Assembly: GCA_937893115.1 (NCBI GenBank)
Contig: CALBGK010000197.1
Location: 1 to 10,716, forward strand
Reading direction: 5' to 3'
Length of the DNA: 10,716 nt
Source of the DNA: an uncultured Erysipelotrichaceae bacterium
Lineage (GTDB): Bacteria > Bacillota_I > Bacilli_A > Erysipelotrichales > Erysipelotrichaceae
Below, one piece after another: positions 5,533-10,716 of this stretch (the first letter of the stretch is position 1; every line of letters begins with the position of its first letter). Position numbers and translations under genes: made by a program. A model generated the notes under the pieces. It searched no databases. It was not told the origin of the DNA and saw only the letters and a program-made list of their open reading frames with translations.

Positions 5533-5562
5533 ACTTTATTGTTTATTAAGAGGGTATCTATT

Positions 5563-7010
5563 ATGTCAAAAACAAAAAAAGATTATTTATTCGTCGTATT
5601 AGCTTTATTTATTATCTTTAGTAGTTATTTTTCTAGTGGTTTTATGGGTCTTAGTGCTGACGCTATAAAACTTTTAGCTGTTTTTGTTGCTTCTTTGATC
5701 TTATGGATTTTTGTATCTATTGATTGGCCTAGTTTTATTACTATTTTATTCTTAGGTCTCATTCCTAGCCTGGGCTTTAATCAAGTATTTAAGGATGCCT
5801 TCGGCAATAGCACTGTCGTCTTTTTAATCTTTACTTTTATCTTAGTTTATCCTCTTTCTAAGACTAATTTCGTTAAACGTTGTACTATCTTTTTTATCAC
5901 TAATAAGATTGCAGCTAAAGGGCCATGGTTTTTCGTTGCCTTTCTTTTAGCTTCAGTTACTTTTATGGGCCTATTTATTTCTCCATCTGTCTTATTTGTT
6001 GCCTTTTTACCATTTTTAAAAGACATCATTGAAGTTTTAGGCTTAAAAAAGGGCTCTAAGACAGCTAATATGCTGATGATGGGTTCAGCTATATGTATAA
6101 ATCTATCATCAGGTATGACAGCGATAGGACATGTATGGCCAACGATGGCCATTGGCTACTATAAGGCTTTTACAGGTCTAGATATCAATCAATTTCAGTA
6201 TATGGCCTTTGGTATTCCTAGCGGCTTAATCATTATTATCTTATTATTTCTCGCTTATCGCTTCATTTATCGACCCGATGATATTAATCAAATAGATGTA
6301 AGTAGAGCTAATGTTCTAAAAGGAGATATACCTTCTATTGATTTAAAAGAAAAAGTCATTTTATTGACTATGTTGCTAACGGTAGTTTTATGGGTGATGC
6401 CAAGTTTACTACAAGGTATATGGCCTGCATTTTATAACACCATTAATGCTTATACCAGTGCTTTTCCACCCCTTATTGGTTGTCTAATATTATTTATTAT
6501 TAAAATAGATGATAAACCTATTCTTGATTTTAAAGAAGTTTCTAGCAAAGGTATATTATGGGGCAGCATTATTATGACAGCTGCTGCTACGGCTTTAGGC
6601 GCAGCTTTAACCAATGATACCTTAGGTATTAGCTATCTTTAAATCTATCAATTTATGTACAAAGTTTATCACCGACGTTGATGATTGCCTTTTTTGTTTT
6701 ATGGGCTTTAGTGGAAACTAACTTCTCTAGTAATATCGTTACTACGACAGTAGTTAGTAGTGTCGCCTTAACTGTTTTGACATCTTTAGATAATAATGTA
6801 GTATCAATAGCTAGTGTAATCATGATGATAGGTTTTGCAGCCAGTGTATGCAATATGACACCAGCTGGTCAAAGTACTGTCAATACAGTAGCTATAGGTT
6901 CTAATTATACAGATACTAAATCAATGTTTATTTGGGGATTAGTAGTAGCTATTATTGCCTTTTTGGTACTAGTCTTTGTATCTTATCCTTTGGCCACTTT
7001 AATTATTTGA
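5563..7010 (+). pseudogene. SLC13/DASS-family transporter, disrupted by a -1 frameshift near 6630-6645
   Basis: A polytopic membrane protein is split over two frames. The first part (5563-6642, about 359 aa) stops after NDTLGISYL. The second, in the -1 frame, continues in register with SIYVQSLSP and then ETNFSSNIVTTTV to 7010. Joined, they give roughly 480 aa, the normal size of a divalent-anion:sodium symporter. The start is the ATG at 5563, with AGAGGG (5549-5554) as ribosome binding site; a TTG at 5539 is less likely. The two SNT-like sodium/substrate loops are atypical: SPS at residues 140-142 and SNI at 6729-6737. The substrate is therefore uncertain. No slippery heptamer lies at the junction, so I favour a mutation or a sequencing indel over programmed frameshifting. 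The reading is otherwise intact, so decay would be recent. Confidence 0.8.
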
Positions 7011-7613
7011 TTTATAGACTAGTTCGACATAGTTAAAATATTTAAGACTATTTTTATAATCAGCACGAATAGTTAATTTATTTTTTAACCAATAATTTTT
7101 AAATTCGACATCAATATCTTTCCTAGATTCCATTAAACCTTCTAAGAAACTGATTGTTTCAAAATATTCCGAATTACTAACAATCGCTTTAATGCTTTCA
7201 CCAGTAATTAAGGCTAAGTTCAAGACAGTATTGGCATTACTGTCTTTTTCTATATAGAAGCCCATAACAAAATTAATAGGGACATATTTATTAGCAAATC
7301 TTAGCCAATGATCTGATACTTCAACTAACTTGTTTACTTGGCGAAATTCTTCTTTTTCCATCATGGCAATTAAGTCTTTATCTTTAAATGAATCATAGAC
7401 AAAGTCAAAGTCTTCAAATTTATTGCGATATACTCTTTTATACCAATAATAGTAGTAACAAGCCCATGCGCATGAGAAGATAAATGTCATGATATATGAT
7501 GTGATAGCAGGGAAATGGGCAGTATAGATGATTGATAATATCATAGCTATTGAAGCTATGATGAATATGATATTTAAAATGATATTTCTTGATTTATTAC
7601 TTTTGATGGTCAT
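6999..7613 (-). CDS. hypothetical two-TM membrane protein
   Basis: This 204-aa protein matches no family I recognise. Two hydrophobic segments at about 10-31 and 34-57 form an N-terminal hairpin. The aromatic, basic stretch YYYYWYKRVYRNK follows, then a soluble mixed-charge domain of about 140 residues with several Trp and Tyr and no obvious catalytic motif. The start is supported by AAGGAG on the minus strand (7621-7626), 7 nt before the ATG. A TATAAT lies further upstream at 7652-7647, but its -35 is weak. The 3' end overlaps the transporter gene by 12 bp in convergent orientation, with no terminator between them. The cytoplasmic domain may be regulatory or structural, but nothing visible says which. 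Confidence 0.7.
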   Translation of the reverse strand: MTIKSNKSRNIILNIIFIIASIAMILSIIYTAHFPAITSYIMTFIFSCAWACYYYYWYKRVYRNKFEDFDFVYDSFKDKDLIAMMEKEEFRQVNKLVEVSDHWLRFANKYVPINFVMGFYIEKDSNANTVLNLALITGESIKAIVSNSEYFETISFLEGLMESRKDIDVEFKNYWLKNKLTIRADYKNSLKYFNYVELVYKSNN

Positions 7614-7809: not shown

Positions 7810-7858
7810 GATGTCAATTGACAAAGATGTTTGATTATTTTTAAGATAGATATATCAT
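7810..7858 (+). promoter_or_regulatory. operator palindrome and promoter of the peptide-regulator operon
   Basis: A perfect 12-bp palindrome TGTCAATTGACA (7812-7823) lies in the context GATGTCAATTGACAAA (7810-7825). The same element recurs before the protease gene. A -10-like TATCAT (7853-7858) begins 29 bp after the palindrome, placing the operator centre near -48, suitable for an activator that replaces a weak -35. The right half, TTGACA (7818-7823), is also a perfect -35, with TAAGAT (7842-7847) 18 bp downstream. A repressed or basal promoter overlapping the operator is therefore an alternative. The predicted 5' UTR is about 27 nt. The rest of the 278-bp intergenic region is AT-rich, with nothing else I recognise. 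Confidence 0.65.
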
Positions 7859-7891
7859 TTAAAATAGCAGTTGGTATAAAGGGGGATACAT

Positions 7892-8104
7892 ATGCTTAAA
7901 AAAATATCTATTATTTTATCCATTATATTCTTATTGACTAATCAAAATGTTTTATTACATGCAGATAACTATACTGATGATAGTAAAGAAAATAGTGATA
8001 TCAATGAAATAAACAAGAATGATTATTCTAATGAAGAATATGAAGAAATTTACGAAATAGAATTATACGAATTTAAGGGCGACGGTGGAAATAACGGTAA
8101 ATAA
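7892..8104 (+). CDS. small secreted peptide precursor, candidate pheromone
   Basis: This 70-aa precursor has a classic signal peptide: Lys-Lys at 3-4, a hydrophobic core at 5-15 and a likely signal peptidase I site after LHA (residue 24). The mature 46 residues are strongly acidic (EEYEEIYEIELYEF) and end in the small, Gly/Asn-rich tail FKGDGGNNGK. There is no cysteine and no lipobox. The start is backed by AAAGGGGGAT (7878-7887). The stop lies 6 nt before an RNPP-like regulator. In RNPP systems (PapR/PlcR, NprX/NprR, Phr peptides) a short secreted precursor is encoded beside its TPR receptor, and the active peptide comes from its C-terminus. The pheromone role is inferred from this arrangement; I recognise no homologue by sequence. 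Confidence 0.75.
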   Translation: MLKKISIILSIIFLLTNQNVLLHADNYTDDSKENSDINEINKNDYSNEEYEEIYEIELYEFKGDGGNNGK

Positions 8105-8110
8105 TTGTCT

Positions 8111-9361
8111 ATGATAAATGAGCAATTAAAAAGAATTATCGTTTCTAGAATTTTAAGATATCAGTTGGATCAATGCGATATTTCTCAGATACAATTAGCA
8201 AATCAACTTAAGAAAAGCAGACAAAATTTAAATCAAATATTTAAAGGTAAAATATCCATTTATCCAAGAACCATAAATCAAATTCTGCAAGAATTGGGCG
8301 TTAATGACAAATTCTTTGACAATGATGAAAAATATGAAGAGTTATGTAATTTGCTTAACGTCTGTTTGAAAGAGTTTTATTGTTGTGAATTTGATAAATG
8401 TTTAAATCATATAAATGAAATAGAGAATCTTTCTTATAAATACAGTTATTTTACTCCTAAACGTATAATCGCTTTGGCAGTGAAATATTCTATTGTTGAA
8501 GATTATGATGGGTTGTTTGAATGCATAAGTGTATTAGAAAATTATTTTAGTGATGTATTAGATAATGAAAGCGAAATAGCTTATCTTATCTTGGCTAGTG
8601 ATTATGAGATAGAGAATGGTGATTTTGAAAGTGCACTTAAACATTTAGATAAAGCTTCGAAAATATCAACTTTGTTATATGATGCAACAGGCATGATTTA
8701 TATGTTTATAGGAATGATCCATTTTTGGAGATGGCAACCAATACAAGCTATAGTTAACGATAATAAAGCCATTAGTTTCTTTGAAAGAACATCTAATTTT
8801 TATCGTTTAGTGGCAGTATTTAATAACATCGGAGCATGTTATGTTCAATTGAAAGAATTTGATATAGCCGAAAGTTACTTCCTTCAATCAGTAAATAGAT
8901 CTAAACAAATTGGTAGAGAAAAAACGCTTATTGGTGCTTATTCTAATCTTGCCAATATGTATCGTCAAAGCAAAAGATATGAAGAATCTATTGAATATGG
9001 GAAAATGACATTAAGTAAATCAAGGAATAATGTTTCCGCAATGCTATCTGTTGCTTGGTCTTCATTTTATTTAAATGATCTTAAAACGGCATCAGATTAT
9101 AAAAAAATGATTATACCTTTTATACATGAAGGCAATAGAAGAAATCTATTTATTGAATTGCTTGATTTATATATAAATCAAAAAGAAATAGAAGCCAAAA
9201 TTAGTAAATTAGAAGAAATGGTATATTTATTTGATAAAGATGGCGATAGAAACAATATGATGTTTTGTGCAGAAATGTTATTAGATGAATTGGAAAAAAC
9301 GCAAGATTATAAAAAACTATATAAGTATCAAAAAACTGTTCTAAATGTATATCATTATTGA
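8111..9361 (+). CDS. RNPP/Rgg-like transcriptional regulator (HTH + TPR)
   Basis: This 416-aa cytoplasmic protein begins with an Xre-type helix-turn-helix (about 10-64; IQLANQLKKSRQNLNQIFKG spans helices 2-3), followed by a long all-helical C-terminal region. TPR-like repeats are clearest at about 232-265 (NNIGACYVQLKEFDIAESYF) and 272-305 (YSNLANMYRQSKRYEESIEY), with weaker ones before and after. This is the architecture of peptide-binding regulators such as PlcR, NprR, PrgX and Rgg/RopB. The ATG at 8111 is preferred; a TTG at 8105 would add two residues. Neither has a nearby Shine-Dalgarno, so translation is probably coupled to the peptide gene 6 nt upstream. It presumably binds the palindromes at 7812 and 9365 as a dimer. 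No terminator is visible after it. Confidence 0.85.
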   Translation: MINEQLKRIIVSRILRYQLDQCDISQIQLANQLKKSRQNLNQIFKGKISIYPRTINQILQELGVNDKFFDNDEKYEELCNLLNVCLKEFYCCEFDKCLNHINEIENLSYKYSYFTPKRIIALAVKYSIVEDYDGLFECISVLENYFSDVLDNESEIAYLILASDYEIENGDFESALKHLDKASKISTLLYDATGMIYMFIGMIHFWRWQPIQAIVNDNKAISFFERTSNFYRLVAVFNNIGACYVQLKEFDIAESYFLQSVNRSKQIGREKTLIGAYSNLANMYRQSKRYEESIEYGKMTLSKSRNNVSAMLSVAWSSFYLNDLKTASDYKKMIIPFIHEGNRRNLFIELLDLYINQKEIEAKISKLEEMVYLFDKDGDRNNMMFCAEMLLDELEKTQDYKKLYKYQKTVLNVYHY

Positions 9362-9362
9362 T

Positions 9363-9411
9363 GATGTCAATTGACGAAACTATAGTCTATCAAATTACTA
9401 AATGGTATATT
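9363..9411 (+). promoter_or_regulatory. second operator and extended -10 promoter of the protease operon
   Basis: GATGTCAATTGACGAA (9363-9378) matches the upstream operator at 15 of 16 bases and holds the 10-bp palindrome GTCAATTGAC (9366-9375). It begins 2 bp after the regulator stop codon. An extended -10, TGG-TATATT (9403-9411), starts its hexamer exactly 29 bp after the 12-bp operator unit (9365-9376), the same spacing as at the peptide promoter. The -35 position (9383-9388) is poor, so activation by a bound regulator is likely. The 5' UTR of about 80 nt to 9497 holds a possible weak stem (ATCAAC 9435-9440 with GTTGAT 9461-9466). Confidence 0.65.
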
Positions 9412-9497
9412 TTAATTGAAAATAAGTAAGCGCTATCAACTCCTAGGTTAAAAGTATATCGTTGATTAATCTTGCTATTTTCAAGAAAGGAATAAAT

Positions 9498-10616
9498 ATG
9501 AAAATGAAAAAGATAATACTTTTTGTAGCGATGATTTCATTGTTTCTTCCAACTCAATTATCCGCAAATGATAATTATTCTGAAGAAGAAAATGCAATTA
9601 AGTCTTCTTCTGTTGAACTTGCAGAAAAAATGTTAGATAGTCTTAATACTGAGTTATACATTGTGTCAAGGACACCATTATATGATGGAGAAGACAATAT
9701 AAATGGTTTCCTATTTCACTTATCCAACGGAAACAAGAGCGGATATATGATAGTTTTTAATGTAGAAGGAAGACTAAAAGTAACAGAGTTCTCTTTAGAT
9801 GACGATTTACCTATTGTCGGAAATCAAAAGTTATACTATGGAGGATTAGCATCTTATTCCATAAAAAATAATGGAACGTTATATAATGTTTATACGAATA
9901 AAGAAATTTCAAACGCTTATATCGCCAAACCTTTAATTAACTATGGCAAAGAAAAAAAGATTGCCCCGATGTCTGCTGTATCGTTCAATGTTGGTTATTC
10001 CTCTTTGGATAACACAATGGCAAAAATAATGCAAAGAGAAGTTTCGCCATACGGAAATGCAAAATGTATGCAAACTGCTGCCGCAATGCTTATTCAATAT
10101 TGGGATGAGTATAAAGTCGGATTTGGAAACTTCACTAATAAAAAAGGGGTTGATCTAGTTCGGGAAATAGAAAATTATGTGCCATTAAAACCTGATAAAT
10201 CAGGAACTTATCTATCTACTTTGGTTAGCGGCATGAGAAATTATATTTCCGACAAAGGGTTTAATTATTCGGTATCTTCTCATGCTTGCGATTTAAATAA
10301 CGATACATTGCCAGAGAACTATATTTTAACAGTAAAGCAAGATATTTTGAACGAAAGACCTAGCATTGTAATTGTTGGTCAAGATGCTGAGTACAGTGGG
10401 AATAACGGTATAGATTTAGAAGGGACAACCATGCATGCTATGACTGTAATTGGAACAACAACTGCAATGATAGATACGGGTGATAATGTTGATTACTTAC
10501 GAGTAATTGACCCATGGGATGGAATATCCAAGTATGTTGCTTGGGATCCGTATAATTGGGAGGCCAGAGATTACTTTGCTATTTACGCTATTGTTAGAAT
10601 TAACATTACAAAATGA
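9498..10616 (+). CDS. secreted C39/papain-like cysteine protease with prodomain
   Basis: This 372-aa preproprotein has a signal peptide (1-23; KMKKIILFVAMISLF, cleavage after LSA). A domain at about 30-140 (SRTPLYDGEDNINGFLFHL and GYMIVF) resembles the propeptide-like region of streptopain-type and C39-like enzymes. The catalytic domain runs from about 170 to 370. The likely catalytic residues are Cys190 in NAKCMQTAAAMLIQYW, His313 in MHAMTVIG and Asp338 in RVIDPWDG. The usual CGP is replaced by CMQ, and no Gln stands six residues before Cys190, so the oxyanion-hole residue is unclear. The start at 9498 is chosen for its ribosome binding site (AGAAAGGA, 9484-9491) and signal peptide; an upstream in-frame start lacks both. 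The gene is downstream of the regulator, with the shared operator before it, so it is the probable effector. Its stop overlaps a lipoprotein start. Confidence 0.8.
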   Translation: MKMKKIILFVAMISLFLPTQLSANDNYSEEENAIKSSSVELAEKMLDSLNTELYIVSRTPLYDGEDNINGFLFHLSNGNKSGYMIVFNVEGRLKVTEFSLDDDLPIVGNQKLYYGGLASYSIKNNGTLYNVYTNKEISNAYIAKPLINYGKEKKIAPMSAVSFNVGYSSLDNTMAKIMQREVSPYGNAKCMQTAAAMLIQYWDEYKVGFGNFTNKKGVDLVREIENYVPLKPDKSGTYLSTLVSGMRNYISDKGFNYSVSSHACDLNNDTLPENYILTVKQDILNERPSIVIVGQDAEYSGNNGIDLEGTTMHAMTVIGTTTAMIDTGDNVDYLRVIDPWDGISKYVAWDPYNWEARDYFAIYAIVRINITK

Positions 10617-10654
10617 ACAAAATGCATTCTGTTATGAACAAAATACATTCTGTT
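10613..10654 (+). repeat. 21-bp tandem duplication covering a start codon
   Basis: Two adjacent 21-bp units (10613-10633 and 10634-10654) differ at one base (G/A at unit position 12). Each unit begins with ATGAACAAAAT. The unit is a multiple of three, so the frame is kept and the encoded protein reads MNKMHSV-MNKIHSV. Confidence 0.95.
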
Positions 10655-10716
10655 TCTCGTTTCTTGATATTATTTATTATTGTCATTAGTCTCAGCTCTT
10701 GTAGTGGTAATACTGA
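10613..10716 (+). CDS. N-terminus of a lipoprotein, cut off by window end
   Basis: An open frame from the ATG at 10613 runs off the window. It begins MNKMHSVMNKIHSVSR, then a hydrophobic core FLILFIIVI and the lipobox LSSC followed by SGNT. This is a standard lipoprotein signal sequence: the Cys would be lipidated and the protein anchored outside the membrane. Two starts are possible, 10613 and 10634, because a 21-bp tandem duplication repeats the start region. The first overlaps the protease stop as ATGA, giving translational coupling; neither has a Shine-Dalgarno. Position in the same transcript suggests a function linked to the protease, such as an inhibitor, chaperone or surface partner. 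Only 34 codons are visible, so the function is unknown. Confidence 0.7.
   Translation, partial: MNKMHSVMNKIHSVSRFLILFIIVISLSSCSGNT

Follow-up and report, generated by a model that had tools for sequence, protein, structure and literature searches.

A candidate RRNPP-type peptide signalling system beside a secreted cysteine protease gene in an uncultured Erysipelotrichaceae bacterium

Results and discussion

Organisation of the locus

The locus described here raises the question of whether a small secreted peptide, a TPR regulator, a secreted protease and a lipoprotein, which are encoded one after the other, belong to a single signalling circuit. The window, i.e., the whole stretch of 10,716 nucleotides that was analysed, originates from contig CALBGK010000197.1 of an uncultured Erysipelotrichaceae bacterium. 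A sequence-only reading of this DNA had interpreted four consecutive plus-strand genes as a peptide-pheromone circuit, an interpretation that is supported by the present analysis. We consider it probable that the genes constitute an RRNPP-type peptide signalling system controlling the secreted protease, and the best reading is that of an undescribed RRNPP-type lineage. What is directly shown, and forms the basis for this, is the gene order, the domains, the promoter palindromes, the recurrence in relatives and the association between the kind of peptide tail and the kind of receptor. The list of open reading frames (ORFs) and their translations place all four successive genes on the plus strand, as had been claimed:

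7892 to 8104, plus strand: candidate pheromone precursor, 70 aa, beginning with MLKK and a hydrophobic stretch, tail ending in YEFKGDGGNNGK
8111 to 9361, plus strand: candidate peptide receptor and transcription regulator, 416 aa, with HTH_3 and TPR repeats
9498 to 10616, plus strand: predicted secreted papain-like (C39-like) cysteine protease, 372 aa, with signal-type N-terminus, pro-region and catalytic domain
10613 to 10716, plus strand: lipoprotein, start only, frame open at the window end, lipobox-like ISLSSC

The N-terminus of the 70-aa peptide is hydrophobic and bears lysine, and judged by eye there is a possible signal peptidase site after LLHA. The ORF is kept elsewhere, in the near-identical proteins P0017 and P0018, and forms one row of the peptide family alignment (A8). 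The regulator starts with the ATG at 8111, which lies 6 nt past the peptide stop, the distance given in the earlier reading; the database entry P0001 also takes this ATG, and a TTG at 8105, immediately past the stop, is an alternative start. In Pfam, the regulator scores 25.7 bits with HTH_3 (PF01381, cut-off 23) and 52.1 bits with TPR_12 (cut-off 30.1, E 7.7e-14). The description of the third product as a secreted cysteine protease with a prodomain agrees with its signal-type N-terminus, pro-region and catalytic set: the catalytic domain comprises approximately residues 165–372, and Gln179, Cys190 (10065–10067), His313 and Asp338 are invariant across nine aligned sequences. With PF13529, the window protease reaches 15.6 bits, which is under the cut-off of 24, and the homologues L001 (26.7) and L002 (24.7) slightly exceed it; these homologue scores, together with the Gln/Cys/His/Asp set, assign the window protease at the sequence level to the C39-like papain-fold peptidases. 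The lipoprotein ATG (10613) shares bases with the protease stop codon, and a second in-frame ATG, at 10634, falls within 21 bp that repeat the start region.

The criteria for RRNPP(A) systems given in the main text of the RRNPP_detector paper include a propeptide of 10–100 aa, a receptor of 250–500 aa with TPR, direct neighbourhood of the two genes and, in all but Rap, an N-terminal HTH (PMC10075063). Four of five criteria apply outright to the window, since the propeptide has 70 aa, the receptor has 416 aa with TPR_12 over the cut-off, the two genes are 6 nt apart and PF01381 is above its cut-off, whereas Sec export of the propeptide was judged by a surrogate rule from a KK duplet, one hydrophobic stretch and an RBS. 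The locus can therefore be placed beside the novel candidate subfamilies of RRNPP_detector; the term Erysipelotrich* is absent from the main text of that paper, and overlap via its supplements is possible (PMC10075063). In the main texts of the open-access literature searched, no account was found of RNPP/RRNPP quorum sensing or peptide pheromones in Erysipelotrich*.

Pairing of peptide and regulator

A signal-peptide mini-gene is located within 400 bp of 16 of the 21 evaluable window-type regulators, all of which were reached by the regulator search alone, as opposed to 4 of 110 control ORFs (Fisher 6e-13); the other five are without a peptide under the rule used. Searches with the peptide only led to 14 places with intact flanks, 13 of which lie within 500 bp of a window-type regulator, and with the five already known places excluded, the same holds for 9/9 new loci. 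The sequence-only reading had named as counter-evidence the case in which homologous regulators are never found beside this peptide or protease; this case was tested and did not arise, and the pairing recurs far above the control rate.

The peptide tail type follows the receptor clade. A second clade of regulators, referred to here as the sister clade and searched in 17 genomes, is homologous to the window-type clade from end to end (hhalign 98.7%), and a cysteine pair is present in the tails of 9 of 10 sister-clade peptides versus 1 of 19 window-type peptides. Peptide-binding proteins of the SBP_bac_5 type occur in 5/5 relatives searched, and in L078 one is encoded downstream of the lipoprotein in the same orientation. 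The pairing and the tail types bear on the explanation that the regulator is a nutrient or eavesdropping sensor for prey, host or other-species peptides freed by proteolysis and that the mini-gene makes no ligand. Rap receptors without a peptide of their own provide a precedent (PMC9765709), and the five window-type regulators lacking a peptide would fit it, but the frequency of the mini-gene relative to the controls and the agreement of tail type with receptor clade make this explanation very improbable.

Placement of the receptor family

The sequence-only reading had proposed an RNPP-like logic with PlcR and RopB as models. The first part is supported, but the models have to be replaced: the closest known logic is that of NprR-NprX-nprA rather than PlcR or RopB, because the regulator resembles NprR and Rap by profile. 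Positions 69–415 of a profile of 10 regulators align to 6–360 of 4gpk, the NprR TPR domain (E 7.8e-18), so that NprR-type homology extends over the whole TPR array in this profile of 10 relatives. Among the known bacterial regulators matched by the profile, NprR ranks best, and it is colinear across the array; designed TPR proteins and LGN outscore it, over parts. The profile matches Rap too, and Rap105 is slightly better than NprR in a second profile. With the window regulator as a single sequence, phmmer did not find NprR. Structure prediction gave a poor model for the regulator (pLDDT 55.7), with matches to NprR and PlcR no higher than to unrelated TPR proteins, and the fold search was discarded as family evidence because TPR matches are too general to decide. 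An Rgg-type name for the sister regulators was likewise discarded, as these regulators match seven NCBIfam families, none of which is a model for RRNPP proteins; they match ComR by the HTH only (E 0.02).

NprR-NprX of the Bacillus cereus group, which controls the neutral protease gene nprA, shares with the window the HTH with a long TPR array and a secreted protease among the targets, which here is a putative target. The gene of a small exported precursor adjoins that of the regulator in both cases, but nprX lies after nprR, whereas the order is reversed here, with the peptide gene first. Furthermore, the NprR-NprX target is a metalloprotease and the system belongs to Bacillales, while a papain-like cysteine enzyme is encoded here, in Erysipelotrichales. 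PlcR-PapR, also of the Bacillus cereus group, is similar in its HTH-TPR regulator, adjacent secreted precursor and exoprotein regulon with a common palindrome. It differs in its operator: the consensus PlcR box is not enriched in the window (13 matches with at most two mismatches versus 15.3 expected) and has no match in either promoter, and it was rejected as the operator. In RopB-SIP-SpeB of Streptococcus pyogenes, a peptide-sensing HTH regulator adjoins a secreted papain-like cysteine protease, as the candidate regulator does here; no match to Pfam C10 was obtained for the window protease. SIP is a short, leaderless peptide from a 24-bp ORF (PMC10518010), whereas the precursor described here has 70 aa and a hydrophobic signal-type N-terminus.

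Protease loci and other cargo

The relatives of the window genes are Erysipelotrichaceae. Eight protease loci were compared, one of them that of the window; the protease has a small secreted peptide as its neighbour in five, an HTH regulator in five and a lipoprotein in seven. Peptide, regulator, protease and lipoprotein occur together again in L002 and L022, and the first three without the lipoprotein in L001; L020 has a peptide and no regulator, L019 a regulator and no peptide, and L017 and L018 neither. Conserved synteny had been put forward as a check of the circuit, and the trio of peptide, regulator and protease does recur in other Erysipelotrichaceae genomes. Weak protease matches (L013, L014, L015, L028–L032, L034) were left out of these counts as partial or different proteins; on two of these contigs (L021 for L014, L050 for L028) the matching region is directly followed by a lipoprotein, and neither peptide nor regulator was seen. 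A pattern scan of viral contigs found no relative of the protease or regulator and thus gives no support for phage carriage.

Near the peptides, other enzymes are found as well: a matrixin-like secreted protease with intact HExxHxxGxxH in L073, L078 and L079, and a C39-like secreted protease in L075 and L110. In 9 of 17 peptide loci, no secreted protease was seen in the ORF lists, with Pfam run on part of the neighbours, and protease control is therefore not the sole cargo. These loci bear on whether the peptide is instead a secreted partner of the protease, be it an inhibitor, a substrate or a bacteriocin-like product that the C39-like enzyme trims, with the regulator sensing something else. 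C39-like enzymes cut leader peptides, the sister peptides are rich in cysteine and a peptide adjoins the protease in 5/8 loci, all of which would suit such a role; however, peptides of the same family stand beside regulators at the nine places without a visible protease and near matrixin-like enzymes at three, and it is the regulator that is the constant partner of the peptide (13/14), which renders a protease partner unlikely.

A further idea, that the lipoprotein duplicates the pro-region of the protease as a Spi-like inhibitor, was rejected after comparison of 12 lipoproteins with 8 proteases (best value 0.015, N-terminal stretches). At the three matrixin loci, the lipoproteins form one family (28–46% identity, E 2e-10 to 2e-79), but among the window-type protease loci that were compared, the lipoproteins match one another at most weakly and over short stretches. 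There is also no convincing similarity to the proteases, and a role in immunity is thus no more than a guess.

Promoter palindromes

The same palindrome had been reported for both promoters, and it was confirmed at two sites:

7812 to 7823, no strand assigned: palindrome TGTCAATTGACA, peptide promoter
9365 to 9376, no strand assigned: palindrome TGTCAATTGACG, protease promoter, with the perfect core GTCAATTGAC at 9366–9375

The right half of the first site is the consensus −35 hexamer TTGACA (7818–7823), and a −10-like TAAGAT follows at 7842–7847; promoter-like matches in the region are no commoner than in shuffles (23 versus 23.9). Any 10-nt palindromic core common to both intergenic regions appeared in 2 of 2000 shuffle pairs and a common word of at least 13 nt in 23 of 2000, while a weak whole-window consensus test allowing two mismatches reached two matches in 27 of 200 shuffles. 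In 626 kb searched, overlapping loci included, the core is found solely at these two sites, and the window palindrome was not found in the DNA of relatives searched. Among 27 promoter regions of relatives tested, a dyad common to two promoters was present only in L074, where ATACTTTAGTA(T), which is unlike the window palindrome, is present in one copy ahead of the peptide and in two copies ahead of the regulator; some shared 12-mer was also obtained in 50 of 1000 shuffles of L074.

The palindromes bear on a further explanation, according to which peptide and receptor are a genuine signalling pair, protease and lipoprotein are unrelated neighbours and the palindrome belongs to another regulator. 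A palindrome that is not conserved in relatives, and protease loci without peptide and regulator (L017 and L018), are what one would then expect, but the core is common to exactly the two promoters in question and the linkage to proteases recurs with two receptor clades and three protease types, so we assign this explanation a small, though not negligible, probability.

Proposed mechanism and significance

In the favoured RRNPP-type system, the 70-aa precursor would be exported by Sec and trimmed, and a short C-terminal peptide, around FKGDGGNN, would build up outside the cell. The mature peptide would be re-imported by an oligopeptide permease and bind the TPR domain of the regulator, which would act at the palindrome before its own peptide gene and before the protease-lipoprotein operon, so that protease output would follow cell number. 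Since the −35 box of the peptide promoter lies within the palindrome, activation and release from repression are equally likely.

More tentatively, and with the odds rather against so broad a view, Erysipelotrichales may harbour a large superclade of RRNPP receptors that has gone unrecognised and that uses two ligand codes, namely mostly cysteine-free acidic, glycine-rich or proline-lysine tails for the window type and a C-x3-C-W cysteine pair, possibly disulfide-closed or modified, for the sister clade. To this would be added a cassette in which the secreted protease, of the cysteine or the zinc type, is exchanged while the kind of peptide switch stays the same, and a lipoprotein that may protect the producing cell from the protease it releases. 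Disulfide-closed or modified signals would contrast with the unmodified linear pheromones that this superfamily is thought to need, which raises the question of whether cysteine-paired peptides can serve as intracellular pheromones; matched receptor-peptide pairs from two clades would be available for specificity studies.

If the proposed system is real, another bacterial order would gain a signalling family described in the literature examined for bacilli, streptococci, enterococci and clostridia, and a ready list of ligands could be tried in cultured relatives. Extracellular proteolysis in these mostly uncultured gut Firmicutes would then be a social trait under peptide control: in gut-type Erysipelotrichaceae, crowding may switch on protein digestion outside the cell, and some relatives keep the same kit with other proteases.

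Gene set in the window

Translation of the window confirmed the four consecutive plus-strand genes claimed in the sequence-only reading, which the ORF calls place as follows:

7892-8104, plus strand: candidate pheromone peptide, 70 aa
ATG at 8111, plus strand: regulator, 416 aa, starting 6 nt beyond the peptide stop
9498-10616, plus strand: secreted protease, 372 aa
From 10613, plus strand: start of a lipoprotein, whose ATG overlaps the protease stop and whose frame is still open where the window ends

The upstream genes, named from their translations, are presumably rplU, prp, rpmA, obgE, ruvA and ruvB, so the setting is taken as chromosomal. The window ObgE is 62 and 65% identical to ObgE of two Erysipelotrichaceae MAGs, by which the source is assigned to this family or its close surroundings. 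A DASS-type anion symporter seemingly lies in two ORFs of different frames, 5539-6642, which matched the dass model, and 6678-7010, and the split (5539-7010) seems to reflect a sequencing error or a frameshift. A 204-aa membrane protein on the minus strand (6999-7613) diverges from the peptide gene, shares its intergenic region and has no family match above cut-off. A 21-bp direct repeat at 10613-10654 doubles the region of the lipoprotein start codon; its units pair as an 18-pair hairpin, scored terminator-like on the minus strand, and it possibly regulates lipoprotein translation or terminates a gene running towards it.

Recurrence of peptide and receptor

With peptide profiles, built from four peptides and then from thirteen including that of the window, 17 strong places emerged at E < 1e-6, spread over 14 of 315 genomes. 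Weaker matches among those listed mostly resembled signal-peptide noise within longer frames, apart from the loci L114 and L115 (L numbers denote loci or contigs in relatives' genomes). Where the flank is intact, that is, outside L075, L077 and L110, which are cut by a contig end, an HTH regulator of the window type or of its sister clade, homologous end to end (hhalign 98.7%), lies within 500 bp of the peptide in 13 of 14 places, L020 being the exception; in L074 a small HTH gene stands between the two. When the places known beforehand (L001, L002, L020, L044, L046) are excluded, the count is 9 of 9. In the protein database the peptide profile matched 13 proteins, of which the entries P0017 and P0018 are almost the same as the window peptide and have GDGGNNGE as their last residues.

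The window regulator as sole query had matches in 8 of 315 genomes; a second regulator search covered 17 genomes picked for their module parts, a bias in the sample, although most of the regulators counted are other paralogues. A neighbouring mini-gene was defined by an ATG start, 38-100 aa, an RBS, K/R near the start, one hydrophobic stretch and a distance of up to 400 bp. Among window-type regulators from the regulator searches only, 16 had a mini-gene and 5 did not, as against 4 of 110 control ORFs (other ORFs of 200 aa or more from the same set of loci, none close to a regulator; Fisher 6e-13):

Mini-gene present: L044, L045, L046, L048, L049, L153, L155, L159, L160, L161, L163, L164, L166, L168, L169, L172
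Mini-gene absent by the rule: L043, L047, L170, L175, L176

The present set includes a doubtful 43-aa ORF (L045) and a broken regulator (L049, longest piece 307 aa), other broken or partial regulators under 300 aa being uncounted. Outside this count stand the window; L111, L113 and L114, which came from the peptide search; L019, which came from the protease search; and L158 and L165, both of them long TPR proteins, unrelated and at contig edges. Window-type regulators taken together number 20 with a mini-gene, 6 without and 2 at contig edges. For the sister clade the figures are 9, 6 and 4; among the six without, L002 and L078 have a peptide overlooked by the rule, and two, in L076 and L112, share theirs with another regulator some 600 bp off. 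By the ORF picker's starts, peptide and regulator are separated by 5 nt in L044, 3 nt in L153 and 0 nt in L114, and overlap by 4 nt in L046. In L076 (3170-8241) and L112 (3122-6592), receptors cluster in twos or threes round a single Cys-pair peptide, and a small HTH protein lies between them.

Peptide tails and receptor type

A Cys pair within the last 14 residues occurs in 9 of 10 peptides beside sister-clade receptors and 1 of 19 beside window-type receptors; the automatic tally, 13 of 14, also counts four peptides for which no receptor was seen. Three peptides lay outside the tally: L045 beside a window-type receptor, lacking the pair; L128 beside a sister receptor, with the pair in its ending CIVDCY; and L143, also sister, whose C-x4-C is no pair by the rule. 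Adding them gives 10 of 12 versus 1 of 20. The association is partly ascertainment, because the profile was seeded with Cys-pair tails; the L128 peptide, found via its receptor, has the pair, and the L022 peptide, missed by the profile, lacks it. Tails like that of the window (GDGGNNGK) stand beside window-type receptors in L114 (GNNHQGGDD) and L166 (GKDHQGGGK). According to PMC12998947, receptors of this kind are thought to respond to short unmodified pheromones alone; for this reason the sister-clade Cys-pair tails are the most surprising part.

The 41-aa peptide of L076 (ending ICPGPGCDPS) and the 42-aa peptide of L143 (ending ICPQPLCKQL) perhaps form a further class. Another subclass, with Cys/His motifs resembling CTHxHxEECG, accompanies window-type regulators:

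L048, 6299-6490: Cys/His-motif peptide
L160, 1059-1223: Cys/His-motif peptide
L161, 1320-1490: Cys/His-motif peptide
L169, 1452-1619: Cys/His-motif peptide

The 390-aa protein after the L048 peptide had no Pfam match up to 0.01.

Protease, cargo and import

With the window protease, the protein database search returned two homologues only and the genome scan two loci; a four-sequence profile matched 9 of the family's 272 genomes. A nine-sequence profile gave seven loci in six genomes below 1e-90 (315 genomes of the order), flattering values, as these loci are rows of the profile; their first-pass E-values with the four-sequence profile were 8e-10 or better. Across these seven loci and the window, the peptide is present at five of eight (window, L001, L002, L022, L020), and an HTH regulator adjoins the protease at five (window, L001, L002, L022, L019). 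Neither was found at the protease in L018, a 4.1-kb contig, or L017, which ends 150 bp beyond it; the genome of L017 has a window-type regulator, peptide and lipoprotein on a separate contig, L046. The lipoprotein adjoins the protease at seven of eight loci, L001 excepted, and is upstream in L017.

Three kinds of secreted protease lie near peptides, at 8 of the 17 peptide places:

Window-type protease: L001, L002, L020
Matrixin-like protease (HExxHxxGxxH): immediately downstream in L078 and L079, some 1 kb further along in L073
Short C39-like protease: L075, L110

The ORF lists of the other nine, with Pfam run on part of the neighbours, showed no secreted protease. Lipoproteins at the three matrixin loci are homologous. 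In gene content, L078 (908-5500) is an export-to-import kit: the peptide, the matrixin-like protease, the lipoprotein, an oligopeptide-binding protein and a permease are encoded consecutively on the same strand, and the regulator is divergent from them. An SBP_bac_5 protein, with a permease, follows the L078 module, and a search of 5 relatives found SBP_bac_5 proteins in all 5, which provides a route for import.

Promoter palindromes

The same palindrome had been claimed for both promoters, and its core GTCAATTGAC is indeed present in both intergenic regions of the module. Dinucleotide shuffles of the two regions shared any 10-nt palindromic core in 2 of 2000 pairs and a word of at least 13 nt in 23 of 2000; a whole-window palindrome test with two mismatches was weaker (27 of 200 shuffles). 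The peptide-promoter palindrome contains TTGACA at -35, with TAAGAT 18 nt further, promoter-like matches in the region being at chance level (23 vs 23.9 in shuffles). As the window palindrome was absent from the relatives' DNA examined, and only L074 among 27 relatives' promoter regions tested had a dyad common to two promoters, the window operator is deduced from a single locus. The L074 dyad, ATACTTTAGTA(T), is a candidate operator of a sister-clade receptor, with some 12-mer common to this promoter pair in 50 of 1000 shuffles:

L074, 5002-5013: one copy, peptide promoter
L074, 5707-5762: two copies, regulator promoter

Proposed circuit and known systems

Five RRNPP criteria were taken from PMC10075063; PMC9765709 reports a KK duplet in propeptides. 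NprR-NprX-nprA is the closest known logic; RopB-SIP-SpeB differs in that the SIP peptide is leaderless, according to PMC10518010. NprR is treated as activator of nprA in PMC4970707, and lowered extracellular protease activity of an nprR deletion mutant is described in PMC7756075. For the window module, where anatomy and recurrence are observed directly, the best-supported course is that the peptide precursor would be exported and trimmed to a C-terminal fragment, which an oligopeptide permease would import and which would then bind the TPR domain of the regulator, acting in turn at the palindrome.
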